Positions 1 to 32,033 of a DNA stretch of 64,000 nt are shown here, piece by piece. The notes below the pieces were generated by a model. That model was not told the DNA's origin. It worked only from the letters and a program-made list of their open reading frames with translations, and searched no databases. Made by a program: the position numbers and the translations under genes. How positions within the stretch are numbered: the stretch's first letter is position 1; each line of letters begins with the position of its first letter. This DNA comes from Fluviicola taffensis DSM 16823 (GTDB taxonomy: Bacteria > Bacteroidota > Bacteroidia > Flavobacteriales_D > Crocinitomicaceae): positions 1,612,001 to 1,676,000 of the forward strand of contig NC_015321.1 of assembly GCF_000194605.1 (NCBI RefSeq). The letters run 5' to 3'.

Positions 1-68
1 CGAAACGTGTTGCTTCACCTCAAATTGAGAAAGAACTTAAAAAATTGATGGAAGAATGTCGGAAATAA
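1..68 (+). CDS. C-terminal end of an unidentified upstream gene (partial)
   Basis: An open frame enters from the left edge (frame starting at base 3) and ends with TAA at 66-68. It encodes about 21 residues, rich in Lys and Glu, ending in MEECRK. Too little remains to assign a family. Its stop lies 13 bases inside the next gene, so the two are probably translationally coupled and in one operon, which suggests that the pigment locus continues to the left of the window. Confidence 0.5.
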   Translation, partial: KRVASPQIEKELKKLMEECRK

Positions 69-1309
69 TCAAAACAACAGCCGTATTTCAGCAATTGGCA
101 GAATCGATTCAATACGTTTCGAAACATTCTCCTTTCTATCAAACTCATTTTTCGAAAGAAACAGTTAAGGAACTAACACCTGAACGTTTTCGAACGCTAC
201 CTTTCACTTCGAAGGAAGATTTGTCATTGAACAACACGGATTTCCTCTGTGTTCCAACCAATCAAATCGCTGAATATGTAACCACTTCCGGGACATCTGG
301 AAAACCAGTTACTATTTATTTGACCAAAAATGACTTGATTCGTTTAGGTAAAAACGAAAAAGAATCTTTTGAATTGACTGGAGCAAAAGCAGGTGATGTT
401 TTTCAGCTCATGACAACCATAGATAAGCAGTTTATGGCTGGATTGGCCTATTATTTAGGTGTTCAGGAATTAAATGCTGGCATGATTCGCATTGGCCCAG
501 GAGTTCCCGCACTTCAATGGAATTCGATTCTAGAAAACAAACCAACCATTCTCATTGCTGTTCCAAGCTTTTTGGTGAACCTCATCGATTATGCAAAGCA
601 AAATAACATTGACATCAATCAAACCTCAGTGCGTTCCGTAATTTGCATTGGTGAGCCTATTCGAGAAGATGATTTATCTGAAAATGTATTGGCAAAACGC
701 ATTCATGCAGATTGGAATGTGGAATTGTTCTCCACCTACGCTTCTACTGAAATGGGTGCAGCTTTTACAGAATGTACTGCACATCAAGGTGGACATTTGA
801 ATGAAGGCCTCATTTATTTGGAAGTTTTGGACGACGATGGAAAAGACGTTCCAAACGGCGAAAAAGGAGAAATTGTTATCAGTACACTGGGAACAGAAGG
901 AACACCGCTTATTCGCTATAAAACAGGTGATGTAGCACGTGTTTATAGAGATGCTTGCCCGTGTGGGAGAACTTCTCCCCGTGTTGGGCCAATTATTGGA
1001 CGAAAAAACCAAATGATTAAGTTCAAAGGAACAACCATTTTCCCTCCATCGATTTACGAAATTTTTGATAGTCGATCAGAAGTGAGTTGCTATAAAATAG
1101 AAGTTTCGAAAGATTATTTAGGGCATGATACGATTACTATTTTACTTGAAAACAGAATAGAACATTCACCTGTGATGACTCAAATTATTGAGGATTGCAA
1201 GGCAAAGCTGCGTGTCGTTCCTCATTTTGTGTTCTTAGAGAGCGATTATCTAAGAAGTCAAGTCTTTAAAAACCACATGCGGAAACCGGAAAAGATTATC
1301 TTTAAGTAA
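56..1309 (+). CDS. PaaK-like AMP-dependent ligase (phenylacetate-CoA ligase family)
   Basis: This 417-residue adenylating enzyme should activate a carboxylic acid as acyl-AMP and pass it to CoA or an ACP. The phosphate-binding loop TTSGTSGKP is at residues 76-84. A YASTEMG segment follows near residue 227, then IRYKTGDVARVY and a CPCGR motif typical of phenylacetate-CoA ligase relatives. The ATG at 56 overlaps the preceding open frame. Because a tyrosine ammonia-lyase lies in the same locus, the natural substrate may be 4-coumarate or a related aryl acid used as polyene starter. That is inference: the family includes CoA ligases and F390-synthetase-like proteins, and the substrate cannot be read from sequence. 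Confidence 0.85.
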   Translation: MSEIIKTTAVFQQLAESIQYVSKHSPFYQTHFSKETVKELTPERFRTLPFTSKEDLSLNNTDFLCVPTNQIAEYVTTSGTSGKPVTIYLTKNDLIRLGKNEKESFELTGAKAGDVFQLMTTIDKQFMAGLAYYLGVQELNAGMIRIGPGVPALQWNSILENKPTILIAVPSFLVNLIDYAKQNNIDINQTSVRSVICIGEPIREDDLSENVLAKRIHADWNVELFSTYASTEMGAAFTECTAHQGGHLNEGLIYLEVLDDDGKDVPNGEKGEIVISTLGTEGTPLIRYKTGDVARVYRDACPCGRTSPRVGPIIGRKNQMIKFKGTTIFPPSIYEIFDSRSEVSCYKIEVSKDYLGHDTITILLENRIEHSPVMTQIIEDCKAKLRVVPHFVFLESDYLRSQVFKNHMRKPEKIIFK

Positions 1310-1319
1310 ACGAAAAGCT

Positions 1320-1973: not shown

Positions 1974-1979
1974 AATAGC

Positions 1980-3200
1980 TTACATTTTTACGATGTGCGC
2001 TACCGCATTGACCAATGTACTGTGTTTTTTAACGAACGGATTCGTTTCATCCCAAACATATCCAGCAAGCACAGAGCAAATTTGTTGTCTGATTGTCTCA
2101 TCTACTTTCTCGCTGAAGAAAATATCTCCCAATGTTCCTTCATACCAAGCAAGAACATAAGTTCTGAAAACGTCAATTCCTTTCTTCAATACAACACTGT
2201 AGTCTTTTTCCCAATCCACTTGTTCACCCTGAAGTTGTTTTGCAACCAAAGTAGCCGCTTTGTATCCAGATGAAATAGCCAAAGTTACTCCTGAACTAAA
2301 AATCGGATCCAAAAACTCCGTACTGTTTCCACACAACACGAATCCTTCACCATATACTTGTTTCACAGAAACCGCGTAGTTAACAATCAAACGTGGTTCG
2401 AACATAAATTCAACACCGTCATAACGACCATTTAAACCTGGGAATTCGGCAACACGTTTTTTAAATTCTTTTCCACCATCGGCATAACATGCTTCAATGA
2501 ACTCTTTGTTTCCAACGATTCCAACCGAAGCCGTTCCATCTGAAAAAGGAATCGACCAAATCCAAGATTTATTATCATTGAAAGCGTGTACGAAGATATT
2601 TCTTCCATCTTCAGGAGTTCTTCTTGTATCATCCAAGTGAGCAAAAACTGCTCCACGAGGAGGCGTTGAAACGGGAACCTCTAAATTAAACATTTGAGGT
2701 AAAACACGTCCATAACCACTCGCATCCATTACAAACCGACAATGAACTTCATGAAGTTCGCCATCCTTATCTTTGTAAGTAACTATTTGCTTTGTTGCAG
2801 AGGTTTTCACATCCGTTACTTCCGCTTGAAATTCAACCACCGCACCTTGCTTTTCAGCTTGTTTGATTAAAGCATGATCAAAATCAGCACGTTTTACTTG
2901 AAACGTATACGACCATCCTTCCGAAAACTGATTTTCGAACAAGAAATCACATCGCTCACCATTGTGATAAAAACAAGCTCCTGTTTTTACTTGAAAATTC
3001 AAGGCTTCAACCGCTGGAAGAAGACCTAACTCATCCAAATAATCCATACTATGAGGCAATAAACTTTCTCCGATTACAAAACGGGGGAATACCATTTTTT
3101 CCAAAACCAATACACTAAGACCTTCTTTTATCAATTTGGAGGATGCAACAGAACCAGCAGGACCAGCACCTATAACAACAACATCTACTTCTTTAGTCAT
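1980..3200 (-). CDS. flavin-dependent halogenase-like monooxygenase
   Basis: A 406-residue FAD enzyme. The dinucleotide-binding GxGxxG is at residues 10-16, the FPRFVIGESLLP segment at 38-49, a FQVKTGA segment with Lys72, and WIWSIP at 213-218, which fits the WxWxIP signature of flavin-dependent halogenases. The combination resembles the CmlS/PltA branch that chlorinates carrier-bound or phenolic substrates, where the lysine after the GESLLP region is catalytic. The locus context fits chlorination of the aryl end of a flexirubin. Non-halogenating geranylgeranyl-reductase-like relatives share parts of this pattern, so activity is inference. The start overlaps the end of the upstream CrtI-like gene by 8 bases, so they belong to one leftward operon. 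Confidence 0.8.
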   Translation of the reverse strand: MTKEVDVVVIGAGPAGSVASSKLIKEGLSVLVLEKMVFPRFVIGESLLPHSMDYLDELGLLPAVEALNFQVKTGACFYHNGERCDFLFENQFSEGWSYTFQVKRADFDHALIKQAEKQGAVVEFQAEVTDVKTSATKQIVTYKDKDGELHEVHCRFVMDASGYGRVLPQMFNLEVPVSTPPRGAVFAHLDDTRRTPEDGRNIFVHAFNDNKSWIWSIPFSDGTASVGIVGNKEFIEACYADGGKEFKKRVAEFPGLNGRYDGVEFMFEPRLIVNYAVSVKQVYGEGFVLCGNSTEFLDPIFSSGVTLAISSGYKAATLVAKQLQGEQVDWEKDYSVVLKKGIDVFRTYVLAWYEGTLGDIFFSEKVDETIRQQICSVLAGYVWDETNPFVKKHSTLVNAVAHIVKM

Positions 3201-4716
3201 AATTTTTGATTTTTTCTATTACCTCTTTATTATCTACAAAGTTAAAGGATGTTACCAATGCACCAATAGTTGCACCTAAAATTCCATGAAAAATAATATT
3301 CTGACCTGTTAGATATAAATTCGGAACATGTGTTCTTGTATTAATTTGTGATTTATGTATTTGATTAAAATCCTTCTGAAATCCATACATTGAGCCTCCA
3401 GGAGTCGCAATGTAATCACGGTAAGTAATCGGAGTAGATGAGTATACATTTTTTATATGTGCTCTAATTCCAGGAAAACGGGTTTCTATTCGTTTCAAAA
3501 TTCGTTCGACGCATACATCTTTGAATTCCTCATAATCAACATGGCGCTCTCCTTCAACAACAACCGTTCTAACAGAATCTTCCCAAGCTTTTAACTCTTT
3601 TATATCCAAATAACACATGATGGAAATAGATTCTGCAAATTCATCCGTGTTTTTTGAAACTTGTGCCGAAGTGAAAGTCATTTGGGGCCATTCTTCGGAG
3701 AAATGAAATTCTTCATCCCAGATATTATCCGTAAAATAATCGTAAAAATTGGAATTAAAATAGGGGAATTTATTCTCCTCAAAAGAAATATACATCATAA
3801 AGGAAGAAACCGTATTTGGTAAAGATTTCAAGCGCTTAATGAACGGATTTTTGAAATTACTTTCTCCCACAATTGCAATCGTTTCAGTAGGATGCAAATT
3901 CGAAATAACAGAATCACATACAAACTCGGATTTGTCCGCACAAATGACCGAGCGAATACAACCCGCTTCATCATAAGTGACAGAAACTACTTCTTTTCTT
4001 CTCAACACTTCGCCACCATGTTCAGAAATTCGCTTCATGAGAATCTTCGCAATTTGTGACGCACCATTCACAAAACGGTAACTCCCTTTGATAAAGCTAT
4101 TCAAAATCAAGGCCATTACGTAGAAAGGAGTAATCCCTTTAATTCCAGCATATAAAGGTCCTGATCCCAAAACAGCTTTAATTAAATCTTCATTATCCGT
4201 CAAAGCAGCTAAACGCTCCCAAGCGCCTACTTCCAAAACAACGGAATTTTCGATATAATTAATTTCAGAATCCAATTCTAAATTATACAATGGAAAATAA
4301 CTGCAATAAAGTCTTATTTCTTGGCAGATATTCTCAATATCTTGGTGATTGTTTGGAAAGGATTCTTTCAACTTCTTTTCAAAATTGGCATAGCCCATCC
4401 CATGCTTGATTACTTGACCATTTGAAAGGCGGATAACATCAAACGCATTTTCATCCATTCGATGAAGATCCAAATCATCCATGATATTCAAATACTTGAA
4501 GATTTGATACAAGTTTTCACCCTTATCCAATCCACCTACGTAATGCACACCCGTATCAAAAATGCGTTTATCTCTGCTGAAAACTTGCAAAGAACCACCA
4601 ATCTGGTGATTTTTCTCCAAAACTTTCACCTGATAGCCATGCTTAGCAAGAATCAAAGCAGTAACGAGTCCACCCATTCCACTACCAATAACAACTATTT
4701 TCTGAGGCTCTTCCAA
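3193..4716 (-). CDS. CrtI-like FAD-dependent oxidoreductase (phytoene desaturase / carotenoid isomerase superfamily)
   Basis: A 507-residue flavoprotein. The N-terminal FAD site is VVIGSGMGGLVTA (Gly11, Gly13, Gly16) followed by EKNHQIGG, and the C-terminal FAD-binding segment is LYLTGQNIIFHG. This is the architecture of phytoene desaturases, carotenoid isomerases and retinol saturases, which oxidise or isomerise polyenes. In this locus the likely substrate is the aryl polyene or an acyl intermediate rather than a carotenoid, because no phytoene synthase is present. It lies 4 bases after the MMPL fusion gene and overlaps the halogenase-like gene by 8 bases. It is one of two such enzymes on this strand; the other is at 8576-10180. 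Confidence 0.85.
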   Translation of the reverse strand: MEEPQKIVVIGSGMGGLVTALILAKHGYQVKVLEKNHQIGGSLQVFSRDKRIFDTGVHYVGGLDKGENLYQIFKYLNIMDDLDLHRMDENAFDVIRLSNGQVIKHGMGYANFEKKLKESFPNNHQDIENICQEIRLYCSYFPLYNLELDSEINYIENSVVLEVGAWERLAALTDNEDLIKAVLGSGPLYAGIKGITPFYVMALILNSFIKGSYRFVNGASQIAKILMKRISEHGGEVLRRKEVVSVTYDEAGCIRSVICADKSEFVCDSVISNLHPTETIAIVGESNFKNPFIKRLKSLPNTVSSFMMYISFEENKFPYFNSNFYDYFTDNIWDEEFHFSEEWPQMTFTSAQVSKNTDEFAESISIMCYLDIKELKAWEDSVRTVVVEGERHVDYEEFKDVCVERILKRIETRFPGIRAHIKNVYSSTPITYRDYIATPGGSMYGFQKDFNQIHKSQINTRTHVPNLYLTGQNIIFHGILGATIGALVTSFNFVDNKEVIEKIKNYD

Positions 4717-4720: not shown

Positions 4721-7700
4721 CTACTTTTTTAGAATCATTAAAACATTGGATGTTTTGGTTGAATGTTCAATCAATTCAAAACTAAAACCATTCTGATGAG
4801 CAAATTGTTCGATTTGCTTCGCAGATAAAAACGTCAAATCATTAGTCGTCTTATTAAATTTAAACCATTTAGTAGACAAAATTTCTGTCAATTTCGTATT
4901 CTTCAACCGATCTTGCAATTCAATAATTCCATCACGAATGACGATTATTCCTTCATTATCCATTTTGCGATTCACATCAATCAATAACTGAATTTGCTCT
5001 TCTGGTTTCAAATAATGAATCACATCATTGAAGAAATAAACATCAGCAGCAGGAATTTCCCATTCCCGAATATCTGCATTCTCAAAATTTATTTTGTCGG
5101 AAAGTTTAATGCAATTATTTGCAACCGCGATTTTGTCTTCATCGTAGTCCATTCCAACGATTCTTCTAGAAGGGTCATAATAGTTTAAAAACAAAGACAG
5201 GTAACCATATCCACAACCAACATCTACAACACTCTTTTTAGTTCCAATTAATTGGTTGTAAAAATCAAAATTCGTTCTCTCCATACGCCACTTCACTCGA
5301 ATATACCATTCTAGGATTGGACCCTTCAACAAGTAATTTTCCATGACTTTTCGCGTGAAAAAGGTACTTGTTGCATGTTCTTTTCTAAAATTCTGCATTC
5401 CATCACGCATGAGTTGTGTAGCACGTTTGCAAAATTGACCATACGTCTCATTTTCTAATGCAGTGATTCGATCCAAAGGTTTGTATAGTATTTGTCCCTG
5501 ATTAATAATGAAATCATTCTTTGGATTTACTTCATGTGTTCCAAGAATCAACAAAGGCTGAATAGGAATTCCCATTTCCATGGAAAGATAAAATGCTCCT
5601 TTGTGAAAACGCTTAATCATTCCATCCGAACTCCTTGTTCCTTCGGGGAAAATAACAATCGAGTATCCTTCATCGATTCGTTTTCGAACATCATCTAAAT
5701 TACCATCTGCACCTTCTTCCGCAAACAAATAACCTCCATATCGAATAAATGGAGAGAAAACAGGTGAATTGTAAACCCATTTCTTCACCATAATTACGGT
5801 TTTCGGATGCAGCATAAGCACCACCAGAATATCCAAGAAAGAACTGTGATTCGCAATAATAATACTCGGGTTTTTATAATCCAATTTATGGGCGTCAACA
5901 CCGATTTTCTTTACATGAAATCCTGCGTAAATGGTTGATTTAGCTAATCTTGAAATCAAATAATTAAGCACGTTTTGTTTTTTAATTCGCTTAATTGGTA
6001 AAGGAATTAGAATAAAAATAAGGAAGATGTTTAAGACGAAGCTTCCAACAAAGAAATACAAAAACAACAGGATGCTATAGATGAAGTAAAAGAAGGTAAT
6101 TGGACCTCTACCTGCTTTTGCACGATTCAAAACGAAGAAATTAAAAATTCGCGGTTGCAAAAACAACGTGATTAGCATGATTGAGCCTATTCCAACAACG
6201 CTGATTGCTCCAATGGAATGAATGGCAGGATGCTTCGCAAAAATGAGCACCCCAGTTCCAATAATCGTTGAGATTCCAGATAAAATAATTCCAGACTGGG
6301 AAGATTTAATCGAATTCACTCCAGTTCTTGATTGTTGAATCAATCCATCGGTAGTAAAAATACTGAAATCATCCCCCAAACCAAAGATGAAAGTAGCAAC
6401 GATGATATTGATGAAATTGAATGGAATATCAAACATGGATGAAATCCCCAAAATCCAAATCCAACCCAATACCATTGGAAATGCCGCAAAAAGCGTTAAC
6501 TCTATTCGCCCATAAATAACCAACAAAGAAACGAACACCAACAGTGAGGAAAATAAAAACAAATAGTCAAAATCCTTTTTCACCACATTCAACATGGATT
6601 TGGCCATTTCCGAAATATCAAGAATAAAAACACCCTCTATTTTTGATAATTCCTCCTTCACTAAATCTTGTTTGTCTTTCTTTACAGTGATTGACGTAGC
6701 ATACGAATAAAGGTCTTTTTCTTCCGAAACAAATTTGTTTAATCCCAATTGATTCAATAAATCAATTCCTTCCTGTTTGTCAACACTCGGTTTTTCAATC
6801 CACTGAAAGAACGGTTTAAATCCAGCGCTATTTAATCCATATTCTGGTGAAATTTGCTGGACTTCTCGTTCTATATTGGAATGTTTCTTCCAAAAATTCA
6901 ACCAATTGGCTTCCGATTTTTCCAACGAATTTTTGGAGGGCAAGTAAGGAGACAACGAAACCAATTCTGAAATTCCGTATTGTTCTTTATCCGCAACAAG
7001 CGACTGGTAAACGGCATCGTTTTGAATACGTGCAGCTTCCATGGTAGGAGCAGATGAAAAGACGAATAATTTCTTATCGGTATTTGGGTTAATGCCTGTA
7101 TAGAATTTCTCCTTTTCTTTTAATTCTTTGGTGTGAAAAGACAAGTGATTCATGTCGGAATCAAATGTCATACCCGAAGATTTGTAAAGAAAAACCAAGG
7201 AAAGTAGGGTAATCAACAGAAATGAAGCTCGAACAAGTGGCTTGCTTAATTTAAAGCCTTTTGTTGGCTTTGATTTATCACGAATTTCCATCCGGAATTG
7301 CTTCACCAAAACAGGCAGGAATAGGAGCGTAAAAACCACTGAACCAGACAATGTACACAAAGCAATTAATCCGAAATTTTGTAAAACAACTGAATTCGTA
7401 AATAACAAAGAAGCTAACGCGGCAATTGTCGTAAAACTTCCCAATAACATGGGTGAACCAATTTCCTTCACTGTTTTCACTACATCTCCTAAATGCTTCA
7501 GATGGGTAAAGAAATGAAAAGAATAATCCAATACAATTCCAAGTAAAACAGAAGAGGTTGCTAATGAAATTGCAGAAATTTCTGGATGCAAATATCCAAC
7601 CAATCCTGCACCACTTAAAATTCCAAAAAATGCTGGAAACAGAAAGTAAATAGGAGCCAAAACACTTCGGTAGTATAGAATTAAGAGTAATAAAATACCC

Positions 7701-8521
7701 GATATACTAATCATCGAAGTTAAAAAAGCATCAAATTTCACTTGTTTCGCATTCTCAACTGCAACTTGGAACGTTCCAAAATAATCAAATTTCAAGCCTT
7801 TTTGCTTCGCTTTTTCTTGTTTGAATGCTTCTATTCGTTTTGAAAACTCGGCTAATTTTTTGGTGTCTTTTTGATTAATCTCAATGGTTCCAAAGAAAAA
7901 AGCATATTGTTCGTCGCGGGAATATACAACACCATCCTTCAAGCTATAATTGCCAGAATCCGAACTTGGATTGAGTTGTTTCAACTGTTCGTAAAACAAT
8001 CCCAAAGGATCTTGTGCAACAACGCTACTTAAAAAAAAGGCATTGGGGCCATGCAATAAATCAGCACTGCGCTTCAACGATTTCCGAATAGAGTCTCCTT
8101 TTAATTTCTCTTCCAATCGGGCATAATCTTTTGGTTCCAAGGTTCGGATAGAGCTTTTTTGAAGAAAACCAATTAAAGCAGCTTGATCAACCGATTTCAC
8201 GATTTCAATTTCACTCAGTTCCTGAGAAAATCGTTTTTCCAAATCGACTTTTAAACCTTCTAACTGTTCAAAGGTTAATTCTTCATCCCCTTGATTTTTA
8301 ATAGAGAAAACAACTTGCTTATTGAGTTTGTTTTTCTGAACGATTTCATTGAATTTCCGAAACTCTTCGCCTTGTGGGAAAATAGCATACAAATCTTCAT
8401 TGATGTTCAATTTCGAAACACCAACGCCTAAAAAAGTAAGTACGAGAAGAAATATCCCCCAAAAAACGACCCGTTTTCTAAGGAAAAATGCAACGATTCT
8501 AGCGCAAATTTGACCAATCAT
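4721..8521 (-). CDS. three-part fusion: MMPL/RND exporter, PlsC-type acyltransferase, SAM methyltransferase
   Basis: This 1266-residue protein joins three domains. Residues 1 to about 800 form an RND/MMPL-type transporter with a first membrane helix at 18-36, a large outer loop, a helix bundle at about 265-405, then a second copy of that layout (helices near 433-447 and 650-795). Residues about 850-1045 are a lysophospholipid acyltransferase domain with the H(X4)D box at 892-897 and FPEGTRS at 958-964. Residues about 1060-1266 are a class I methyltransferase with VDVGCGYGYLS at 1099-1109. Such trifunctional proteins recur in flexirubin-type loci. It probably exports or membrane-loads the pigment while acylating and methylating it; the order of these steps is inference. 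No frameshift is seen across the joins. Confidence 0.88.
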   Translation of the reverse strand: MIGQICARIVAFFLRKRVVFWGIFLLVLTFLGVGVSKLNINEDLYAIFPQGEEFRKFNEIVQKNKLNKQVVFSIKNQGDEELTFEQLEGLKVDLEKRFSQELSEIEIVKSVDQAALIGFLQKSSIRTLEPKDYARLEEKLKGDSIRKSLKRSADLLHGPNAFFLSSVVAQDPLGLFYEQLKQLNPSSDSGNYSLKDGVVYSRDEQYAFFFGTIEINQKDTKKLAEFSKRIEAFKQEKAKQKGLKFDYFGTFQVAVENAKQVKFDAFLTSMISISGILLLLILYYRSVLAPIYFLFPAFFGILSGAGLVGYLHPEISAISLATSSVLLGIVLDYSFHFFTHLKHLGDVVKTVKEIGSPMLLGSFTTIAALASLLFTNSVVLQNFGLIALCTLSGSVVFTLLFLPVLVKQFRMEIRDKSKPTKGFKLSKPLVRASFLLITLLSLVFLYKSSGMTFDSDMNHLSFHTKELKEKEKFYTGINPNTDKKLFVFSSAPTMEAARIQNDAVYQSLVADKEQYGISELVSLSPYLPSKNSLEKSEANWLNFWKKHSNIEREVQQISPEYGLNSAGFKPFFQWIEKPSVDKQEGIDLLNQLGLNKFVSEEKDLYSYATSITVKKDKQDLVKEELSKIEGVFILDISEMAKSMLNVVKKDFDYLFLFSSLLVFVSLLVIYGRIELTLFAAFPMVLGWIWILGISSMFDIPFNFINIIVATFIFGLGDDFSIFTTDGLIQQSRTGVNSIKSSQSGIILSGISTIIGTGVLIFAKHPAIHSIGAISVVGIGSIMLITLFLQPRIFNFFVLNRAKAGRGPITFFYFIYSILLFLYFFVGSFVLNIFLIFILIPLPIKRIKKQNVLNYLISRLAKSTIYAGFHVKKIGVDAHKLDYKNPSIIIANHSSFLDILVVLMLHPKTVIMVKKWVYNSPVFSPFIRYGGYLFAEEGADGNLDDVRKRIDEGYSIVIFPEGTRSSDGMIKRFHKGAFYLSMEMGIPIQPLLILGTHEVNPKNDFIINQGQILYKPLDRITALENETYGQFCKRATQLMRDGMQNFRKEHATSTFFTRKVMENYLLKGPILEWYIRVKWRMERTNFDFYNQLIGTKKSVVDVGCGYGYLSLFLNYYDPSRRIVGMDYDEDKIAVANNCIKLSDKINFENADIREWEIPAADVYFFNDVIHYLKPEEQIQLLIDVNRKMDNEGIIVIRDGIIELQDRLKNTKLTEILSTKWFKFNKTTNDLTFLSAKQIEQFAHQNGFSFELIEHSTKTSNVLMILKK

Positions 8522-13694: not shown

Positions 13695-13695
13695 A

Positions 13696-18565: not shown

Positions 18566-18812
18566 TTTAAAAGAAACCTTAAAGGCACAAATCATCGAAC
18601 AACTAAACCTGGAAGACTTAACTCCAGCTGATATTCAAGACGACGCTTCACTTTTTGGAGACGATGGTCTTGGATTGGATTCGATTGACGCATTGGAATT
18701 CATCGTATTGTTGGATTCGAACTATGGAATCAAGATTGCAGATCCAAGTCAAGGAAAAGAAATTTTTTACTCAATAAATACTTTAGCAGATTACATCGCT
18801 AAAAATCAATAA
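18558..18812 (+). CDS. acyl carrier protein
   Basis: An 84-residue carrier protein with Ser42 in GLGLDSIDALEF as the phosphopantetheine site. It overlaps the truncated KS-like gene by 8 bases and its stop abuts the start of the next ketosynthase (no gap). The GLDSID motif and the order ACP - KS - Cys-less KS are repeated at 29532-32033, so this is one of two similar three-gene modules in the locus. Confidence 0.93.
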   Translation: MSDLKETLKAQIIEQLNLEDLTPADIQDDASLFGDDGLGLDSIDALEFIVLLDSNYGIKIADPSQGKEIFYSINTLADYIAKNQ

Positions 18813-24037: not shown

Positions 24038-24946
24038 ATGCAGAACATATTAGTAATTGCATATTCTCAGTCAGGACAGCTTACCGAAATTCTTCAAAAT
24101 TTCTGTAAACCATTCACTGACAGCACTATTGAATGGGTTCACGTTTACCCAGAAACTCCATTCCCATTTCCATGGAACGGTCCCGCTTTTTTCAATGCGA
24201 TGCCTGAAACCGTATTGGAAAAACCAGTTCCAATTCAACCATTGAAATTTGAAAGAGATCACTACGATTTGATCATTTTTGGCTATCAACCTTGGTTTTT
24301 GTCTCCTTCATTACCTGCTTCAGCTATCCTACAAGATGAGAGTTTTCGCAAACTGATGAAGGATACAAATATTGTTTCTATTTTGGGATGCAGAAACATG
24401 TGGATTAATTCGCAGGAAGCCGTTAAAAAACAAATCGCTTCGGCTGGTGGAAAATTGATTGGAAACGTTCCATTGATTGATAAAACGAGTAATTTGATTA
24501 GTGTCATTACCATTTTACACTGGATGCTAACAGGTCAGAAAACACGCAAATGGGGAATTTTCCCTAAACCAGGAGTTTCAGATCAAGACATTGAAAATGT
24601 GGCCCATTTTGGAAAATTACTTCAGGAGAAAATCCAAGCAAATGATGTTCAAAATTTTCAAACAGAACTTATTTCAAAAGGAGGCGTGAACATTCCTATC
24701 TCCATTTTGTTTATTGAGTCTAGGGCAAAAAAATTGTTCCTGATATGGGCAAACCTGATTATGAAGAAAACAGCAAATGGTGGTAATCGAAACTTTTGGA
24801 TTAACTTCTTTAAGTACTATTTACTTTTTGCTTTATTTATCGTTTCACCAATTGTTTTAACGATATATCATATCTTTGTACGACCCTTTTCAGGAGGACA
24901 TATTAAACGCGAATTAGCATATTACAGAGGCACTCAACTGAGATAA
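24038..24946 (+). CDS. darA: dialkylresorcinol-forming enzyme DarA
   Basis: A 302-residue protein of the DarA family. The N-terminus ILVIAYSQSGQLTEIL (4-19) resembles a flavodoxin-type phosphate loop. The middle contains an YQPWFLSPSLPA segment, and the C-terminus carries a hydrophobic stretch (about 262-285) before a basic tail, so membrane association is likely. In known dialkylresorcinol pathways DarA works with DarB and aromatises the cyclohexanedione intermediate to the resorcinol. DarB follows after 2 bases. The pair is the diagnostic feature that makes this a flexirubin-type locus. Confidence 0.88.
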   Translation: MQNILVIAYSQSGQLTEILQNFCKPFTDSTIEWVHVYPETPFPFPWNGPAFFNAMPETVLEKPVPIQPLKFERDHYDLIIFGYQPWFLSPSLPASAILQDESFRKLMKDTNIVSILGCRNMWINSQEAVKKQIASAGGKLIGNVPLIDKTSNLISVITILHWMLTGQKTRKWGIFPKPGVSDQDIENVAHFGKLLQEKIQANDVQNFQTELISKGGVNIPISILFIESRAKKLFLIWANLIMKKTANGGNRNFWINFFKYYLLFALFIVSPIVLTIYHIFVRPFSGGHIKRELAYYRGTQLR

Positions 24947-24948
24947 GA

Positions 24949-26097
24949 ATGAGTTTGAAAGAAGTATACATTACACGCACGGCAGCTTTTTTACCTAATA
25001 ATCCAGTTTCAAATGATGAAATGGAGGGTTATTTAGGTTTAATTAACGACCGTGCATCTAAATCGAGAAGAATCGTTTTGCGTAATAACGGAATTAAAAA
25101 CCGATATTATGCTATTCAAAAAGATGGAACTGCAACACATACGAATGCAGAAATGGTTTCATTGGCGATTCGTAAATTATTTGAAAAAAATCCAACAGAA
25201 TTAAAATCGGTTGATTTAATTAGTTGTGGAACCTCCTCACCAGATCAAATGATGCCCTCTCATGGCGTTATGGTTCACGGTTGGCTGCCAGAATCTGGGA
25301 ACATTGAGGTAGTCTCACCATCGGGCGTTTGTTGCTCTGGAATGCACGCTATGAAATATGCGTTCATGTCCATTAAATCTGGAATGAGTACAAAAGCTAT
25401 TTCATCCGGTTCAGAAAGATTATCACGTGTATTAAGCGCAGACAAATTTGAATTAGAAATTCAAAAGTTAAACGAACTAGAAGAAAATCCATACTTGTCA
25501 TTCGACAAAGATTTTTTACGATGGATGCTTTCAGATGGTGCTGCTGTTTTCATGCTAGAGGACAAAAAAAGTACGGATGGCCCATCTTTGAGGATTGATT
25601 GGGTGGAAGGAATTTCCTTTGCCAATGAAATTGAGTCTTGTATGTACATGGCTGCCGAGAAAATGAGCGACGGAACTTTGAAGAGTTACATGGATTACGA
25701 ACCTCAAGAAATGATTGAAAAATCTATTTTGAGTATCAAACAAGACGTTAAGTTGTTAGATGAACATATTGTCAAACTAGGATTCAACAAATTGAAAACC
25801 AAGTTTGAAGAGAATAATTTAACAAATAATGACGTAACTTGGTTCCTCCCTCATATGTCAAGTTATTTCTTTGAAGACAAAATTTATGCTCAATTGGCAG
25901 ATAATGGAATGGAAATTCCAAAAGACCGTTGGTTTTCCAATTTAGCAACTCATGGAAACGTAGGTGCAGGATCAATTTACTTAATGGTTGATGAATTGTT
26001 CAATAGTGGTAAATTAAAAGTTGGTGATACGATTTTACTTGCTGTACCAGAAAGTTCACGTTTCTCTTACGTATTTGCTTATTTAACCGTTTGTTAA
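24949..26097 (+). CDS. darB: DarB-type beta-ketoacyl-ACP synthase III
   Basis: A 382-residue KAS III homologue. The nucleophile is Cys129 in SGVCCSGMHA. The His is in FLPHMSSYF and the Asn in ATHGNVGAGS, giving the Cys-His-Asn triad of this family. In dialkylresorcinol synthesis DarB joins a beta-ketoacyl and an enoyl thioester to a cyclohexanedione. It lies between darA (2-base gap) and the unknown 132-residue gene (no gap), so all are probably translated from one message. Confidence 0.9.
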   Translation: MSLKEVYITRTAAFLPNNPVSNDEMEGYLGLINDRASKSRRIVLRNNGIKNRYYAIQKDGTATHTNAEMVSLAIRKLFEKNPTELKSVDLISCGTSSPDQMMPSHGVMVHGWLPESGNIEVVSPSGVCCSGMHAMKYAFMSIKSGMSTKAISSGSERLSRVLSADKFELEIQKLNELEENPYLSFDKDFLRWMLSDGAAVFMLEDKKSTDGPSLRIDWVEGISFANEIESCMYMAAEKMSDGTLKSYMDYEPQEMIEKSILSIKQDVKLLDEHIVKLGFNKLKTKFEENNLTNNDVTWFLPHMSSYFFEDKIYAQLADNGMEIPKDRWFSNLATHGNVGAGSIYLMVDELFNSGKLKVGDTILLAVPESSRFSYVFAYLTVC

Positions 26098-26496
26098 ATG
26101 AAAAAGTCAGAAGTTCCCCAAGATAAAAGTGCTCTTGAAAATTTTACAAGAGAAGTTTGTTATGTAAAGAACGAATCTGGTCAATACGATACTGAGTTAA
26201 GCATTGGCTGGGAAGCCAAAAAAGTTGCTCTTGATGAAGCATGGAAGGAAATTGAACGAAGAACTTCAGAAGCTCGAGAAAAAATAAAAAACGGAGAAGC
26301 TAGCCCAATTCTCTATTTTATGGAAGAAAAACTAATGGACTTCACCGTTTTAGCTGGTTATACTGGCATTTGGAAATTTCGGATCAAAAGACATTTAAAA
26401 CCAAACTCATTTCAAAAACTGAATGATACCGTTTTAAAAAAATATGCAAATGCATTTGATATTTCCGTTCACGAACTCAAAAATTTTAAAGCTTAG
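26098..26496 (+). CDS. uncharacterised small protein next to DarB
   Basis: A 132-residue soluble protein that I do not recognise. It has no signal peptide or membrane helix. A charged helical middle (VALDEAWKEIERRTSEARE, about residues 42-60) precedes a C-terminal part whose last 25 residues (LKKYANAFDISVHELKNF) resemble the end of an XRE-type helix-turn-helix domain, but the recognition helix region is not convincing. It starts directly at the DarB stop and overlaps the BtrH-like gene by 1 base, so a role in the same step or complex is likely. Confidence 0.7.
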   Translation: MKKSEVPQDKSALENFTREVCYVKNESGQYDTELSIGWEAKKVALDEAWKEIERRTSEAREKIKNGEASPILYFMEEKLMDFTVLAGYTGIWKFRIKRHLKPNSFQKLNDTVLKKYANAFDISVHELKNFKA

Positions 26497-27503
26497 TGTC
26501 AGAATTTAAGCATCATCAAACCGCGCATTGTGAAAATGGCGTAACTGTGAGTCTTTTAAAGCATCATGGTGTAGACTTCATCACGGAGCCTTTGGCTTTT
26601 GGGTTGGGTTCTGGTTTGTTTTACATTCACATTCCATTCATGGAGATTAATAATGGTCCTGCAATTTCATTTCGAACAATGCCTGGTTCCATTTTTAAAC
26701 GTACGTGTAAAGCTTTAGACGTGCACGTGGAGCGGAAAAAATTCAAAAACCCCAAAGAAGCTACTGATTTCTTAGATTCAAAACTAGCGCAAGGAATGCA
26801 TGTTGGATGTCAGGTTGGCGTCTTTCATTTACCCTACTTTCCAAAAGAATATCGTTTTCACTTCAATGCCCATAACCTAATTGTTTTTGGAAAAGAAGGG
26901 GATCGCTATCTAGTAAGTGACCCTGTAATGGAAGTAACGACTTCTTTAAGTGTGGAAGAATTAGAGAAAGTTCGCTTTGCTAAAGGTGCTTTAGCTCCAA
27001 AAGGTCATATTTATTATCCTGTCCAAGTAGGCGAAATTAGTCAAGAACAAATAAGAAGTGCTATTGTACGTGGAATCAAAAGAAACAGTAAAGACATGTT
27101 GAATATTCCCGTACCCATGATTGGTGTAAAAGGAATTAACTACACTTCTAAAAAAATTAGGGGTTGGAGGGAAAAACATGGACCTCGAAAAGCAGGACTA
27201 CATTTAGGTCAAATTGTGCGTATGCAGGAAGAAATAGGTACTGGAGGTGGTGGATTTCGCTTCTTATATGCTGCATTCTTAGAAGAAGCTTCAGCAATTA
27301 TGCAAAATGATGAATTAATGCGTGTTTCTGAAAAAATGACCAAAGCTGGCGATTTATGGAGAGATAGTGCTTTGCAAATGTCAGGAATCTACAAAGGTCG
27401 AATCACCGAACAAAAAGATTTTGACAATTGTGCGGACTTACTACTTGAAATTAGCGCTGTTGAAAAAGATGCATTCTTAGATTTATACAATATTAAACTT
27501 TAA
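26496..27503 (+). CDS. BtrH-N-domain cysteine acyltransferase-like protein
   Basis: A 335-residue protein starting with GTG inside TAGTG. Residues about 8-150 match the BtrH N-terminal papain-like domain: a candidate triad is Cys12 (AHCENGV), His126 (FNAHNLIVFG) and Asp142 (YLVSDPV). BtrH itself moves an acyl group from an ACP to an aminoglycoside in butirosin synthesis. By analogy this protein could transfer an aryl or polyene acyl chain from ACP to an acceptor such as the dialkylresorcinol. The C-terminal half (about 170-335, helical) may be a DUF4872-type domain. It is 5 bases before the ABC transporter genes. Confidence 0.8.
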   Translation: MSEFKHHQTAHCENGVTVSLLKHHGVDFITEPLAFGLGSGLFYIHIPFMEINNGPAISFRTMPGSIFKRTCKALDVHVERKKFKNPKEATDFLDSKLAQGMHVGCQVGVFHLPYFPKEYRFHFNAHNLIVFGKEGDRYLVSDPVMEVTTSLSVEELEKVRFAKGALAPKGHIYYPVQVGEISQEQIRSAIVRGIKRNSKDMLNIPVPMIGVKGINYTSKKIRGWREKHGPRKAGLHLGQIVRMQEEIGTGGGGFRFLYAAFLEEASAIMQNDELMRVSEKMTKAGDLWRDSALQMSGIYKGRITEQKDFDNCADLLLEISAVEKDAFLDLYNIKL

Positions 27504-27508
27504 TTGTC

Positions 27509-28252
27509 ATGCAGAATACCCTTTTGCATGTTTCAAAGATTTACAAATCTTACAACAAAAGTATAACTCCTAGTTTGGATGGAGTTGACTTTCACATTGA
27601 TAAAGGGGAAATTGTTGGAATTTTTGGACCCAATGGTGCAGGTAAAACTACACTCATTTCCATTTTATGTAGTATTCTAGATCCAACCCTTGGTTCCGTT
27701 ACTTATTTTTTGGATGGTGAAAAAACACCTCGACAAGTACGTGATAAACTTGGCTTTGTACCACAAGATTTTTCATTCTTTCCTGAATTAACTGCCAACC
27801 AAAATTTAGAATATTTTGGAAGTCTTTATAATCTCAAAAAAGACGAATTATCGACTAAAATTGATGAATTATTGCAAAAAGTAGGTCTTTTTCACGTAAA
27901 AAACAAAAAAGTATCTACTTTTTCTGGTGGGATGAAGCGCCGTTTAAACCTGATTATTTCACTGCTTCACAACCCACTTATCCTCTTTTTAGATGAACCA
28001 ACAGTTGGTGTTGATGTTCAAAGCAAAATCGCTATCATGAATTTATTGCAAGAACTCAATAAACAAGGAACAACAATTATTTATACCTCACATCATTTAA
28101 AAGAAGCGGAAGAATTTTGTAACCAAATCATCCTAATCGATCATGGCAAAATCATCGCTTGCAATACTTTAACTCATCTATTAAGCAAATTTGAGGTCAA
28201 AAATTTAGAAGATTTAATCCTTCTGTTAACAGGATCTATACTCCGCGATTAA
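27509..28252 (+). CDS. ABC transporter ATP-binding protein
   Basis: A 247-residue ATPase with Walker A GPNGAGKT at 40-47, signature FSGGMKRR at 138-145, Walker B ILFLDEP at 158-164 and an H-loop in YTSHHL. The arrangement is typical of ABC-2 exporters. It overlaps the permease gene by 1 base, and together they should export a product across the inner membrane. Position among the pigment genes suggests transport of flexirubin or an intermediate, beside the MMPL fusion. Confidence 0.93.
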   Translation: MQNTLLHVSKIYKSYNKSITPSLDGVDFHIDKGEIVGIFGPNGAGKTTLISILCSILDPTLGSVTYFLDGEKTPRQVRDKLGFVPQDFSFFPELTANQNLEYFGSLYNLKKDELSTKIDELLQKVGLFHVKNKKVSTFSGGMKRRLNLIISLLHNPLILFLDEPTVGVDVQSKIAIMNLLQELNKQGTTIIYTSHHLKEAEEFCNQIILIDHGKIIACNTLTHLLSKFEVKNLEDLILLLTGSILRD

Positions 28253-29529
28253 TGAGAAAACTTAGAGCATCTATCTGGAAAGAAATACTACTGGTAGTAC
28301 ACGATAAAGTGGGCTTACTTCTCATGTATTTGATGCCTTTATTGCTGGTATTCATTATCACTATAGTTCAAGATAGTGCATTTCAAATTGTCAATGAGAA
28401 TCAATTAACGGTTCTGATTTCCAATCAAGATGAAGGCACATTAGGAGATTCATTGGTAAAAGCATTGTCTCATTCAGGTAGTTTTGATATAAAAGTAAAA
28501 AACACCTTAACAAAATCAGCCATCAAACGCAACACCATTGACGAAGATGCAATGCTTGGGATTTATATTCCTCCGCATTTCAGCAAGCGTCTTGGAGATA
28601 ATGCTGACAACATTTCCAAATTGATGCTGGTACAGATGGGTGTCATTGAAAAAGCGCCCAAAATTCACCCTAAAAAACAGGAAATAACGATTTATTTTGA
28701 TCCAGTAGTACAAGAAAATTTTCGCATTTCAGTAATTAATGGAATTCAAGCTATCACCTTCGGAATTGAAAACGAAGAAATGGTTTCAAAACTATTTGCC
28801 GAAATGGGTTACGATTCAATACCAAAAAACATTCGCCAAGCAATCATTGATCGAGAAACGAATTTAATAACTTCAAATGCCAGCCTCAATGAAGGAGCCG
28901 AAATGATTCCAAATTCAAGCCAACACAATGTTCCTGCATGGTCCATTTTTGCCATGTTCTTCATGGTTATTTCTTTGGGTGGAAATATTGTGAAAGAACG
29001 TTTATCTGGAAGTTTTTTGCGTCTGCAAACCATTCCACAAGCATTTGTACTAACATTGGTCTCTAAGTTTTTAGTTTACCTTTTTGTTGCGCTATCTCAA
29101 CTGTTGATTCTTTTCTTAATGGGAATCTTCATCTTTCCACACATCGGCTTACCTAAGTTGGCCATGCCAAATGCATTTTTACCCTTTTTAGTTGTGACTC
29201 TGCTTTCCGCGATATCTGCAATTTCCTACGCCGTATTAGTAGGAACTTATGCGAAAACACAGGAACAAGCCAATGGTTTTGGAGCAATTTCAATTATTAT
29301 TTTCGCAGCAATTGGTGGTATTTGGATTCCAAACTTCGTAATGCCAGATTACATGCAAAAAATTGGAAATATTTCTCCACTAAAATGGTGTTTAGAAGGT
29401 TATTACACGCTTTTCTTGAAAAATGGTGCATGGAGTGAATTAATTGGTACCATTTCTTTCTTATTTTTGTTTACCCTGACTTGTCAACTCTTGATATTCA
29501 TCAAGTTGAGAATTCAAAATTATATATAG
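28252..29529 (+). CDS. ABC-2 type permease
   Basis: A 425-residue membrane protein. One N-terminal helix (about 21-41) is followed by a large periplasmic loop to about residue 225, then about five helices (around 230-250, 275-297, 310-333, 340-360 and 390-418). This is the ABC2_membrane_3 layout of drug and lipid exporters. It partners the ATPase just upstream and ends 2 bases before an ACP gene. Confidence 0.9.
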   Translation: MRKLRASIWKEILLVVHDKVGLLLMYLMPLLLVFIITIVQDSAFQIVNENQLTVLISNQDEGTLGDSLVKALSHSGSFDIKVKNTLTKSAIKRNTIDEDAMLGIYIPPHFSKRLGDNADNISKLMLVQMGVIEKAPKIHPKKQEITIYFDPVVQENFRISVINGIQAITFGIENEEMVSKLFAEMGYDSIPKNIRQAIIDRETNLITSNASLNEGAEMIPNSSQHNVPAWSIFAMFFMVISLGGNIVKERLSGSFLRLQTIPQAFVLTLVSKFLVYLFVALSQLLILFLMGIFIFPHIGLPKLAMPNAFLPFLVVTLLSAISAISYAVLVGTYAKTQEQANGFGAISIIIFAAIGGIWIPNFVMPDYMQKIGNISPLKWCLEGYYTLFLKNGAWSELIGTISFLFLFTLTCQLLIFIKLRIQNYI

Positions 29530-29531
29530 TT

Positions 29532-29801
29532 ATGACTGAAAACAGAGAAGAATTAGTTTTTGAATTCAAAGAGCATTTAATTAAATATTTGAATTTGTTG
29601 GATTTGTCTCCAGAACAAATCAAGAATGACGTTCCGCTATTTGGTGATGAATTAGGTTTAGATTCTATTGATTCAGTGGAACTAATCGTATTATTGGATA
29701 GAGAATATGGAATTAAAATCAAGAATCCAACTGAAGGAAGACAGATTTTAGTTGACGTAAACACAATTGTGGATTACATCATTGCAAATCGCACAAAATA
29801 A
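29532..29801 (+). CDS. acyl carrier protein
   Basis: An 89-residue carrier with Ser45 in LGLDSIDSVEL as the phosphopantetheine site. The frame is open further upstream, but the ATG at 29532 follows the permease stop by 2 bases and gives a normal ACP length. With the two following genes it repeats the ACP - KS - Cys-less KS order of 18558-20917. Confidence 0.92.
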   Translation: MTENREELVFEFKEHLIKYLNLLDLSPEQIKNDVPLFGDELGLDSIDSVELIVLLDREYGIKIKNPTEGRQILVDVNTIVDYIIANRTK

Positions 29802-29805
29802 AAAA

Positions 29806-31005
29806 ATGAGTGAAATTGTTGTAACAGGAATGGGTGCAATCAGTTCAATTGGTTTAACCGTTGCTGAAAATCTGTATTCCTTGCAACAGGAAATCTCGGG
29901 CATTCAAAAATCCAAGCATTTCAAATCCAATTATTCAGATTCATTGGTGTTTGGAGAAATTGATCGAAGTGACGAGCAATTATTTGATGAGCTAAATTTA
30001 GCATCCAAGTGTGGCTTTACGCGAACAACTTTAATTGCATTAAAGGCATTTCGAGAAGCGATTGCACAGGCTGGGCTTAGTTCGGAAGAAATCTCTTCCA
30101 AAAGAACTGCTTTCATAAGTTCCAGCACTGTTGGAGGAATGTGTTATACCGATCATTTATACCAAGATGCAAATTTACTTGGAGAACCTTCTGAATATGT
30201 TAGAAACTATGAAGGATCAGATCATGCACTACAAATTGTAAAGCTGTACGAAATGAAGGGGATTACAGATGTCATTAACACTGCCTGCTCATCTTCTGCA
30301 AATGCGATTGCACTGGGAGCAAGATTATTGGAAACGGGAAAAGTAGACCGTGTAATAGCTGGAGGAAGCGATTGTTTGGCAAAGTTTACTGTGAATGGCT
30401 TCAACTCTTTACGCATTTTGAGTGAGGTTCCTTGCAAACCATTCGACACAAACCGAGAAGGTCTAAGTTTAGGAGAAGCGGCGGCTTATGTTGTTTTAGA
30501 AAGAAAAGAAGATCTTTTACCTTCCAAAACAAGCCTTGCGAAGTTTGCAGGATTTGGAATTTGCAATGATGCCTTCCACCCTTCCGCTACTTCAGACGAC
30601 GCGAGAGGTCCTAGAATGGCAATGGAATTAGCATTGAAACGCGCTTCATTAAAACCAGCAGATATTCAATACATCAATGCACATGGAACTGGAACTCCCA
30701 ATAACGATTTGACGGAATCAGTTGCGTTTTCAAAACTATTTGAGGTTGTTCCTCCCTTCAGCTCTACTAAATCTTACGTTGGACACACATTAGCAACGGC
30801 GGGCGTTTTAGAAGCTATTTATAGCATTCTTGCAATTCAAAATCAAGAAATATATCCAAGTTTACGTGTAGAAGAACCAATTGCTGATTTTCCATTTGCA
30901 CCAACCTTAAAGTATACGCCTGAAACAACTATTCAAAACGTACTTTCCAATTCATTTGGATTTGGTGGAAACTGCACATCACTAATCTTCTCAGCATGTA
31001 TATAA
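29806..31005 (+). CDS. beta-ketoacyl-ACP synthase of the second KS/chain-length-factor pair
   Basis: A 399-residue ketosynthase with full triad Cys161 (NTACSSSAN), His293 (NAHGTGTP) and His327 (VGHTLATAG), ending with NSFGFGGNC. I took the ATG at 29806, 4 bases after the ACP, rather than an upstream in-frame start inside the ACP gene. It resembles the 392-residue synthase at 18813 closely in motif context, so the module was probably duplicated and specialised, for example one for the polyene and one for resorcinol acyl chains. Confidence 0.9.
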   Translation: MSEIVVTGMGAISSIGLTVAENLYSLQQEISGIQKSKHFKSNYSDSLVFGEIDRSDEQLFDELNLASKCGFTRTTLIALKAFREAIAQAGLSSEEISSKRTAFISSSTVGGMCYTDHLYQDANLLGEPSEYVRNYEGSDHALQIVKLYEMKGITDVINTACSSSANAIALGARLLETGKVDRVIAGGSDCLAKFTVNGFNSLRILSEVPCKPFDTNREGLSLGEAAAYVVLERKEDLLPSKTSLAKFAGFGICNDAFHPSATSDDARGPRMAMELALKRASLKPADIQYINAHGTGTPNNDLTESVAFSKLFEVVPPFSSTKSYVGHTLATAGVLEAIYSILAIQNQEIYPSLRVEEPIADFPFAPTLKYTPETTIQNVLSNSFGFGGNCTSLIFSACI

Positions 31006-32033
31006 AAGATTTGATAGCCATTTCGCCACAAAAAACACACGATCTTTCTTTCGAAAAAGGAGATTGGCAAGTTTTAACAGATTACATGTACAGAGCAATT
31101 GAACCATCTTACCAAAATCTTATTCCGAACGCACAATTGCGACGCATGGGAAAAGCAGTCCGCATGGGAATGGGTGCTTCATTACCCTTAATGGGAAGAA
31201 ATGAAAAACCAGATGCCATCATTTTTGGAACCGCAAATGGTGGATTGGAAGATTGTATTAAATTCTTGAATCAAATTGTTGAATACGATGAAGGAACTTT
31301 AACACCTACAAATTTCGTTCAAAGTACACCAAATGCCTTGGCCGGCCAAGTTGCTTTGCTGTCAGAGAACATGGCTTATAACATGACCCATGTAAATGGG
31401 TCCTTAGCTTTTGAATCTGCACTATTAGATGCATCCTTGTTCTTTGAAGAACATACAGCTTCGGAAAAATCAATTTTACTGGGTGCAATTGAAGAAATAT
31501 CAGACTATAACTACAACATTGATCGGTTAGGGGATCGATTCAAAACAGATTTGATATCCAACAATGAACTTCTAACCAGCCATTCAAACGGATCTTATTG
31601 TGGTGAAGGCTCTACTCAATTCATTTTGAGTAATAATCCAACAAACAACTTAGCAAAATTCACTGGATTTAAACAGTCCTCTAACCTATCTCTTTCTGAA
31701 CTTCCTCATTTTCTAATGGAGTTCTTAGAAGAACAAAGGCTTGCGATTGGTGATATTGATTGCCTTTTGTTGGGTAAAAGTGGAGATATTCGCACAGACA
31801 ACTGGTATGTAGAATTGGAGCAAATTTTTGGCAAAATTCCTACTGTATATTACAAGAAAGCCGTTGGCGAATACCGAACTGTGAGTGCCTTTGCAAGTTA
31901 CTTGGCAGTTCGACTGCTCAATGGAGAAGCTCAGCATGTTTTCGAAAATGAACCACAATTTACTCCCAAGACTATCTTGATTTACAATCATTTTGACGCA
32001 ATTCGCCATAGTTTAATCCTCATTCAAAAATAA
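30996..32033 (+). CDS. second chain-length-factor-like ketosynthase homologue (Cys replaced by Asn)
   Basis: A 345-residue KS-fold protein. In NMTHVNGSLAFESAL (129-143) the Cys position is Asn134, whereas the paralogue at 19988 has Gln. The early segment LRRMGKAVRMGMG and the TPTNFVQSTPNALAGQ run align well with that paralogue. It overlaps the active synthase by 10 bases and should pair with it. It is the last gene of the pigment locus before convergent genes. Confidence 0.8.
   Translation: MYIKDLIAISPQKTHDLSFEKGDWQVLTDYMYRAIEPSYQNLIPNAQLRRMGKAVRMGMGASLPLMGRNEKPDAIIFGTANGGLEDCIKFLNQIVEYDEGTLTPTNFVQSTPNALAGQVALLSENMAYNMTHVNGSLAFESALLDASLFFEEHTASEKSILLGAIEEISDYNYNIDRLGDRFKTDLISNNELLTSHSNGSYCGEGSTQFILSNNPTNNLAKFTGFKQSSNLSLSELPHFLMEFLEEQRLAIGDIDCLLLGKSGDIRTDNWYVELEQIFGKIPTVYYKKAVGEYRTVSAFASYLAVRLLNGEAQHVFENEPQFTPKTILIYNHFDAIRHSLILIQK

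Follow-up and report, generated by a model that had tools for sequence, protein, structure and literature searches.

Known flexirubin systems and the Fluviicola taffensis locus

Flexirubin gene clusters are very common, with 268 found in one survey (PMC9248904) and 1,234 in another (PMC10734526; papers given by PMC identifier are cited from excerpts throughout). Here we describe such a locus at positions 56-32033 of a 64,000-nucleotide stretch of the Fluviicola taffensis DSM 16823 genome (NC_015321.1, positions 1,612,001 to 1,676,000; "the window" below), in which an flx block (aryl polyene and export) is joined to a dar block (dialkylresorcinol). Flavobacterium johnsoniae UW101 likewise has its dar and flx genes in one continuous locus, of ~37 kb (PMC3992019), with LolA2 inside it as here, and both lolA2 and lolB2 have been reported within flexirubin loci (PMC11885536). 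The dar cluster of Azoarcus sp. BH72 follows the order found here (aromatase, cyclase, hypothetical protein, BtrH-like protein, ABC ATPase, ABC permease, acyl carrier protein [ACP] and ketosynthase [KS]), with a PHD/PilT pair inside (PMC3949708). The Azoarcus arcuflavin genes also include a halogenase (arcA), a LolA, an exporter and a deacetylase; its polyene starter, however, comes from chorismate (XanB2 type) rather than tyrosine, and its arc genes lie in two unlinked clusters with the dar genes in a further one.

For Chitinophaga pinensis DSM 2588, counterparts of nearly all flxA-flxY genes were found in F. taffensis, and its dar cluster (DarA-DarB-DarG-DarH-ABC-ABC-ACP-KS-chain-length factor [CLF]) has the order of window positions 24038-32033, but its genes form two loci (DarB at 8.58 Mb, flx at 2.26-2.29 Mb) instead of one. 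The C. pinensis flx genes run tyrosine ammonia-lyase, ketoreductase, KS, ACP, LpxL, dehydratase, flxG-like, thioesterase, KS, methyltransferase, halogenase, flxL-like, ACP, KS, CLF, deacetylase, LolA, lipoprotein, dehydratase, GT2, MMPL fusion (1291 amino acids), CrtI-like, C45, AcpS-like and coenzyme A (CoA) ligase, and the 25 genes thus counted fit the published Cpin_1853-1877 = flxA-flxY; letters not named in the excerpts of that paper, including FlxK for the halogenase, follow our own counting by position (PMC3992019). Relative to this order, five F. taffensis genes are on the opposite strand (halogenase, flxV-like, MMPL fusion, second CrtI-like and GT2), a second CrtI-like gene (8576-10180) is extra, and the AcpS-like frame, read by eye between flxW and flxY in C. 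pinensis, contrasts with a possible phosphopantetheinyl transferase left of flxW here (a sub-threshold Pfam match). A tblastn search of the window and its left flank returned no counterpart of the C. pinensis flxR lipoprotein.

The locus almost certainly makes and exports a flexirubin, because seven of its genes pass the NCBI curated cut-offs in Pfam and NCBIfam scans of the window proteins (FlxA, FlxB, FlxY, LolA2, DarB, DarG and DarH), because its gene set matches that of C. pinensis, and because F. taffensis RW262T has been called "flexirubin-pigmented", with the keyword "flexirubin-synthesizing" (PMC3236050). This description is also a reported and favourable answer to the pigment test that the initial annotation had proposed for its own conclusion that the organism makes a flexirubin, and we rejected the idea that the pigmentation of the strain contradicts the locus, since the two agree (PMC3236050). 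Growth of this strain with Na+ is reported to be absent (PMC3236050). Among 296 genomes of the same class, FlxA, halogenase, DarB, DarH and FlxW occurred all together in 43 of the 50 that have any of them.

Several points weigh on the other side. FlxJ scores under its own family cut-off (445 vs. 560 bits), tblastn returned no FlxR/LolB2-like lipoprotein in the window or left flank (divergent forms could escape such a search), and FlxA over cut-off is insufficient by itself, as Bacteroides ihuae, one of 14 control genomes, also passes, with DarB matched only below cut-off and DarH unmatched. A plain aryl polyene without a dialkylresorcinol ester might also be imagined, given that the polyene half of the locus presumably resembles aryl polyene loci and that DarB-less relatives exist. 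This is very improbable, however, with DarA, DarB, DarG and DarH intact here and the strain reported as flexirubin-pigmented (PMC3236050). The locus is a known gene set in a strain whose pigment was already reported, so that little is new in the cluster itself; it adds one well-resolved, single-piece flexirubin cluster for Fluviicola.

Gene content and proposed pathway

The genes of the locus, in window coordinates, are as follows.

1-68, forward: 3' end of flxW, a C45/AAT-type acyltransferase or hydrolase of 554 amino acids, beginning 1597 bases left of the window at genome position 1,610,404 (PF03417 1e-24; NF040521 243 bits, cut-off 85)
56-1309, forward: FlxY 4-coumarate-CoA ligase (NF053551 559 bits, cut-off 520)
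1320-1973, forward: flxG-like protein, 217 amino acids (30% identity to the C. pinensis gene in flxG position)
1980-3200, reverse: flavin-dependent halogenase-family enzyme, flxK position (PF04820; PltA/CmlS/ChlB4-type PDB relatives; K72, WIWSIP, FLDPIFSSG)
3193-4716, reverse: CrtI/CrtD-like flavin adenine dinucleotide (FAD) oxidoreductase, flxV position (40% to the C. pinensis gene)
4721-8521, reverse: MMPL exporter-PlsC acyltransferase-methyltransferase fusion, 1266 amino acids, flxU position (Pfam; fusion in relatives too)
8576-10180, reverse: second CrtI/CrtISO-like FAD oxidoreductase (family scans; not separately represented in the C. pinensis flx cluster)
10362-11411, forward: FlxJ-family O-methyltransferase-fold enzyme, putatively for ring methylation (NF053543 445 bits, cut-off 560, full-length match; 45% to the C. 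pinensis gene)
11437-12966, forward: FlxA tyrosine ammonia-lyase, ASG motif (NF053541 814 bits, cut-off 700)
12963-13694, forward: FlxB ketoreductase (NF053542 395 bits, cut-off 340)
13696-14919, forward: ketosynthase KS1, flxC position (Pfam; Cys motif AACASG)
14933-15178, forward: ACP 1 (Pfam; DSL/DSI site)
15185-16057, forward: LpxL-type acyltransferase, flxE position (PF03279)
16038-16466, forward: FabZ-like dehydratase, flxF position (NCBIfam FabZ weak, 1.7e-07, under cut-off; no Pfam match; 36% to the C. pinensis gene)
16463-16891, forward: 4HBT thioesterase (PF13279)
16884-17960, forward: ketosynthase KS2, flxI position (Pfam; Cys motif NACISG)
17957-18565, forward: flxL-like protein (36% to C. 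pinensis; no Pfam or NCBIfam match)
18558-18812, forward: ACP 2 (Pfam; DSL/DSI site)
18813-19991, forward: ketosynthase KS3 (Pfam; Cys motif TACSSA)
19988-20917, forward: CLF-like KS (PF13723; Ala in the active-site Cys column)
20901-21674, forward: polysaccharide-deacetylase-family protein, flxP position (PF01522)
21658-22284, forward: LolA2 carrier (NF053544 147 bits, cut-off 125)
22287-22658, forward: FabA-like dehydratase, flxS position (PF07977)
22713-23882, reverse: GT2 glycosyltransferase with DUF2062, flxT position (48% to C. pinensis)
24038-24946, forward: DarA, flavodoxin-like dialkylresorcinol aromatase (adjoins DarB here and in relatives; no Pfam or NCBIfam match)
24949-26097, forward: DarB cyclising ketosynthase (NF053539 645 bits, cut-off 550)
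26098-26496, forward: DarG (NF053545 192 bits, cut-off 170)
26496-27503, forward: DarH BtrH-like acyltransferase, favoured candidate for ester formation (NF053550 480 bits, cut-off 300; co-occurrence)
27509-28252, forward: ABC transporter ATPase (PF00005)
28252-29529, forward: ABC transporter permease (PF12698)
29532-29801, forward: ACP 3 (Pfam; DSL/DSI site)
29806-31005, forward: ketosynthase KS4 (Pfam; Cys motif TACSSS)
30996-32033, forward: second CLF-like KS (PF13723; Ser in the active-site Cys column)

This content bears out the initial annotation, which had read a near-complete flexirubin locus from DarA, DarB and polyene genes. Its tyrosine ammonia-lyase and dedicated FabG are both there (the latter is NCBIfam FlxB), as are its four Cys-type FabF-like KS, three ACPs, halogenase-like enzyme, MMPL fusion and LolA carrier. 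Its dehydratases number two, its methyltransferases also two (one free, one fused), and its two acyltransferase types are LpxL and PlsC. The genes had been described as mostly overlapping; spacing between neighbours from the tyrosine ammonia-lyase to the second dehydratase is -20 to +13 bases. "Near-complete" holds for the window, with the genome supplying flxW just outside. To this list we add the FlxY CoA ligase, DarG, DarH, the ABC pair and the two CrtI-like flavoenzymes. Three starts were corrected to the first in-frame ATG (tyrosine ammonia-lyase 11437, ACP 3 29532, KS4 29806), where the mechanical open reading frames had taken upstream TTGs, and the two KS-like proteins at 19988-20917 and 30996-32033 are considered CLF-like because Ala and Ser, respectively, replace the active-site Cys.

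On the right, 32033 is followed by a fatty-acid-hydroxylase-family gene and then by hemD-, hemC- and hemA-type haem synthesis genes, so this limit of the locus is sound. The left border is open, as had been noted: flxW, spanning genome position 1,610,404 to window position 68, lies mostly outside, and beyond it on the opposite strand is a 188-amino-acid protein that is possibly a phosphopantetheinyl transferase (Pfam ACPS 21.6 bits, below the cut-off of 25).

All polyene components (KS/CLF, ACP, ketoreductase and dehydratases) were found in the locus by Pfam and NCBIfam scans and KS alignment, and suggest the following pathway. Judging by family, FlxA would turn tyrosine into 4-coumarate and FlxY would form the CoA thioester, activities reportedly shown by others in C. 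pinensis. The KS/CLF pairs, with the ACPs, FlxB and the two dehydratases, would extend this starter to an aryl polyene, whose ring FlxJ may methylate; the earlier expectation of a probably methylated pigment is reasonable in that the FlxJ-family match is full length, but its 445 bits fall below the cut-off of 560. The halogenase-family enzyme would probably add chlorine beside the phenol hydroxyl in some or all of the pigment. Fatty-acid intermediates, probably supplied by the ACP, KS4 and second CLF of the dar block, would be turned by DarB and DarA into the 2,5-dialkylresorcinol, and DarH most likely moves the polyene from its carrier onto a resorcinol hydroxyl. The MMPL fusion, LolA2 and partners would then carry the pigment to the outer membrane.

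The halogenase-family enzyme and possible chlorination

The protein encoded at 1980-3200 matched the Pfam tryptophan-halogenase family and, among PDB entries, 3nix ("Flavoprotein/dehydrogenase", 1.3e-124), ChlB4, the FADH2-dependent halogenase 5buk, CmlS and PltA. Its closest solved relative, 3nix_A, presumably from Cytophaga hutchinsonii, has the same lysine, WxWxIP and FLDPIFSSG, and differs in that its entry name carries no "halogenase". K72, which aligns with the Lys of CmlS, ChlB4 and 3nix and which we take to be the catalytic lysine of flavin-dependent halogenases, is retained in all of the 80 named relatives (the best 80 of 155 confirmed candidates), together with W-x-W-x-I-P and F-L-D-P-x-F-S-S-G; WxWxIP and FxxPxxSxG are, we assume, motifs of these halogenases.

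FlxA lies within 10 kb of the halogenase gene in 69 of these 80 named loci. That the gene is a chance neighbour was rejected, since, of 14 flx/dar genes looked for within 10 kb, one or more are present in 78 of the 80 loci and three or more in 73; without the four paralogue-prone genes (KS3, both CrtI-like genes and the deacetylase), the corresponding figures are 78 and 59 for the remaining ten. The two loci without flx/dar neighbours (L052 and L053) belong to genomes with FlxA over cut-off. Halogenase identity was at least 86% in seven of the best 80 of 155, labelled Fluviicola (four), Flavobacteriales (two) and Glaciecola (one).

Across the 296 genomes, 49 have FlxA, 44 of them over cut-off and the other five with 635-693 bits (the match ranking next has 391 bits); by hand tally they fall into 20 families. 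At E <= 1e-60, with no more than six candidates scored in each genome, the halogenase is present in 46, all within those 49; the FlxA genomes without it at this threshold are G125, G162 and G253. The 296 genomes are mutually related, so that the Fisher values for such associations, here and below, are not independent evidence. Among the 59 genomes nearest to the window, one of them being that of the window itself, 18 have FlxA (E <= 1e-150) and 18 have the halogenase (E <= 1e-40), with both present in 16; FlxA occurs without the halogenase in G029 and G036, and the reverse holds for G002, which is 84% complete, and for G044, where the halogenase match is weak (32%). Of 60 genomes sampled from the genus that includes Chitinophaga oryziterrae, 59 carried the halogenase.

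On balance, the sequence makes it probable that F. taffensis chlorinates its pigment at least in part. The initial annotation had called the pigment possibly chlorinated, and this stands as far as the motifs are concerned; against it, C. pinensis has the same gene with all motifs intact and yet a published pigment, C43H54O4, without chlorine (PMC3992019). The enzyme might then not chlorinate the pigment at all, but catalyse another flavin-dependent step or leave nothing visible in the product, an alternative to which we give appreciable but lesser weight. It would account for the C. pinensis formula (PMC3992019) and for the three of 49 FlxA genomes without the gene at E <= 1e-60, but not as readily for K72, WxWxIP and FLDPxFSSG being conserved in 80 of 80 relatives (best 80 of 155) or for the nearest named PDB relatives after 3nix being halogenases; moreover, chlorinated flexirubins are known (introduction of PMC3992019). 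A role as hydroxylase was rejected, because on our own reading of the structure the published C. pinensis formula holds no extra oxygen and C43H54O4 needs no extra hydroxyl. A bolder version of chlorination, namely that the flxK-position enzyme halogenates flexirubins generally across Bacteroidota, chlorinated forms having been overlooked or chlorine being added and then lost (cryptic halogenation), strikes us as improbable; it draws on the halogenase in 46 of 49 FlxA genomes and on the motifs being retained also where chlorine is absent from the published pigment, and if cryptic halogenation were true the chlorine may help, e.g., export or coupling.

In the open-licence literature, consulted as excerpts, we found no paper on chloroflexirubin and no test of the role of the halogenase or of DarH, and the word "halogen" is absent from the excerpts of PMC9248904, PMC10734526, PMC11237725 and PMC9606717. 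As flexirubin genes are almost always accompanied by this halogenase-family gene, whose closest solved relative is not named a halogenase, a chlorination step in the synthesis of this long-used chemotaxonomic pigment is directly testable.

Formation of the ester bond

The two halves of the pigment have been proposed to be joined by a "ligase-like enzyme (FlxW)" (Schoner et al. 2014; PMC3992019). Among the 296 genomes, DarH was over cut-off in 46, and DarB was present in 46 of these 46. FlxW was found in 48 at a threshold of E <= 1e-30, with up to four candidates scored in each genome; among the 48 are G253 and G272, in which FlxA occurs without DarB and DarH. A third FlxA genome without DarB, Dyadobacter sediminis G348 (locus L029; no DarB at E <= 1e-60), likewise has no DarH at E <= 1e-30; FlxW is absent from its fetched locus, the rest of that genome not having been searched for FlxW. 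As darA and darB have been reported in another Dyadobacter (PMC9606717), this loss of DarB is not genus-wide. The counter-cases to DarH are G125 and G197 (a draft in 360 contigs), which have DarB without DarH, while G080 and G162, with DarB but without FlxW, speak against FlxW. The distribution of DarH thus goes with the resorcinol genes, and that of FlxW with the polyene genes.

BtrH is an acyl-carrier-dependent transferase. Because of this resemblance and of its co-occurrence with DarB, DarH is likely a better candidate than FlxW for ester formation, a comparison that turns on only three resorcinol-less genomes. That FlxW, and not DarH, joins polyene and dialkylresorcinol seems to us unlikely, even though it is the published proposal (PMC3992019), FlxW belongs to a C45/AAT-type acyltransferase or hydrolase family, and its gene adjoins FlxY here (in C. 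pinensis a small AcpS-like frame separates them): DarH is over cut-off solely with DarB, FlxW persists in the DarB-less G253 and G272 where DarH is missing, as it also is from G348, and DarB occurs without FlxW in G080 and G162. Co-occurrence thus points to DarH, over the published candidate, as the ester-forming enzyme. A second, distant DarH/BtrH-like protein is encoded elsewhere in the genome (G000:C1:1149111-1150046, 176 bits).

For these counts, DarB was scored in 48 genomes (38 over cut-off and ten below, including G168 as two fragments), leaving out six matches of 350-420 bits (G069, the second of G080, G087, G226, G264 and G345); these six DarB-like proteins sit in longer frames of 616-635 amino acids, and one of C. 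pinensis in a frame of 683. The DarH count leaves out G023, G096, G239, G327 and G330 (150-180 bits, none with DarB).

Distribution within the genus

Of 13 further genomes in the same genus as the window, eight have FlxA and nine have the halogenase. Four have neither (G010, G011 and G012, at least 99% complete, and G004, 83% complete), so the locus is not universal in Fluviicola. One complete genome labelled Glaciecola amylolytica (L019, CP034120.1) carries the locus at Fluviicola-level identity (halogenase 92%); as the matching genome G003 is assigned to the same genus as the window, the Glaciecola label looks wrong. A metagenome-assembled genome labelled C. pinensis (L022, CAMDNE010000003.1) has a Fluviicola-like cluster: its halogenase and FlxA are 67% and 72% identical to those of the window, as against 46% and 51% for the cluster of the C. 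pinensis type-strain genome.

Individual genes

DarA was recognised from its place beside DarB and from 37-44% identity to 17 aligned relatives. Its AlphaFold2 model, a confident one (mean predicted local distance difference test score 90.9), is predicted to be flavodoxin-like in the N-terminal half, which aligned over 154 columns (of 302 residues) with flavodoxin 3edo, the template modelling (TM) scores being 0.70 by target and 0.38 by query. Three G-protein-coupled receptor entries had slightly better E-values in the structure search, with TM scores of 0.15-0.24 by target; these matches presumably stem from flavodoxin fusion partners in the crystals. The flavodoxin-like fold agrees with the "DAR-aromatase" label of Azoarcus DarA (PMC3949708).

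We rejected the idea that the MMPL-PlsC-methyltransferase fusion is unique to this genome: all three parts share a single frame in 17 of the 23 loci that match any of it, the match in the other six being truncated where the contig or locus ends, and the C. pinensis counterpart is likewise a single frame, of 1291 amino acids. The flxG-like protein (1320-1973), by comparison, was seen in only some relatives (12 of 87 loci searched), and its predicted fold had no PDB match at E <= 0.001, with weak CT253/PelC/TolB-like matches. Among six close Fluviicola-type loci with full flanks, its gene is present in L019 and absent from L015-L018 and L020; it is present in Chitinophaga.

Counterparts of the second CrtI-like gene (8576-10180) occur in 12 of the 80 named loci, at 61-86% identity in 11 and at 42% in one; 12 other loci gave matches of at most 34%, which may represent the adjacent paralogue or different flavoenzymes. 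The enzyme is possibly a lineage-specific polyene tailoring enzyme. Its likeness to the first CrtI-like enzyme is weak (40% over 70 residues). Outside the locus, ~7-9 kb left of the window (L002 10908-12796), a DNA cytosine methyltransferase gene and an adjoining gene for 207 amino acids look restriction-modification-like when read by eye.

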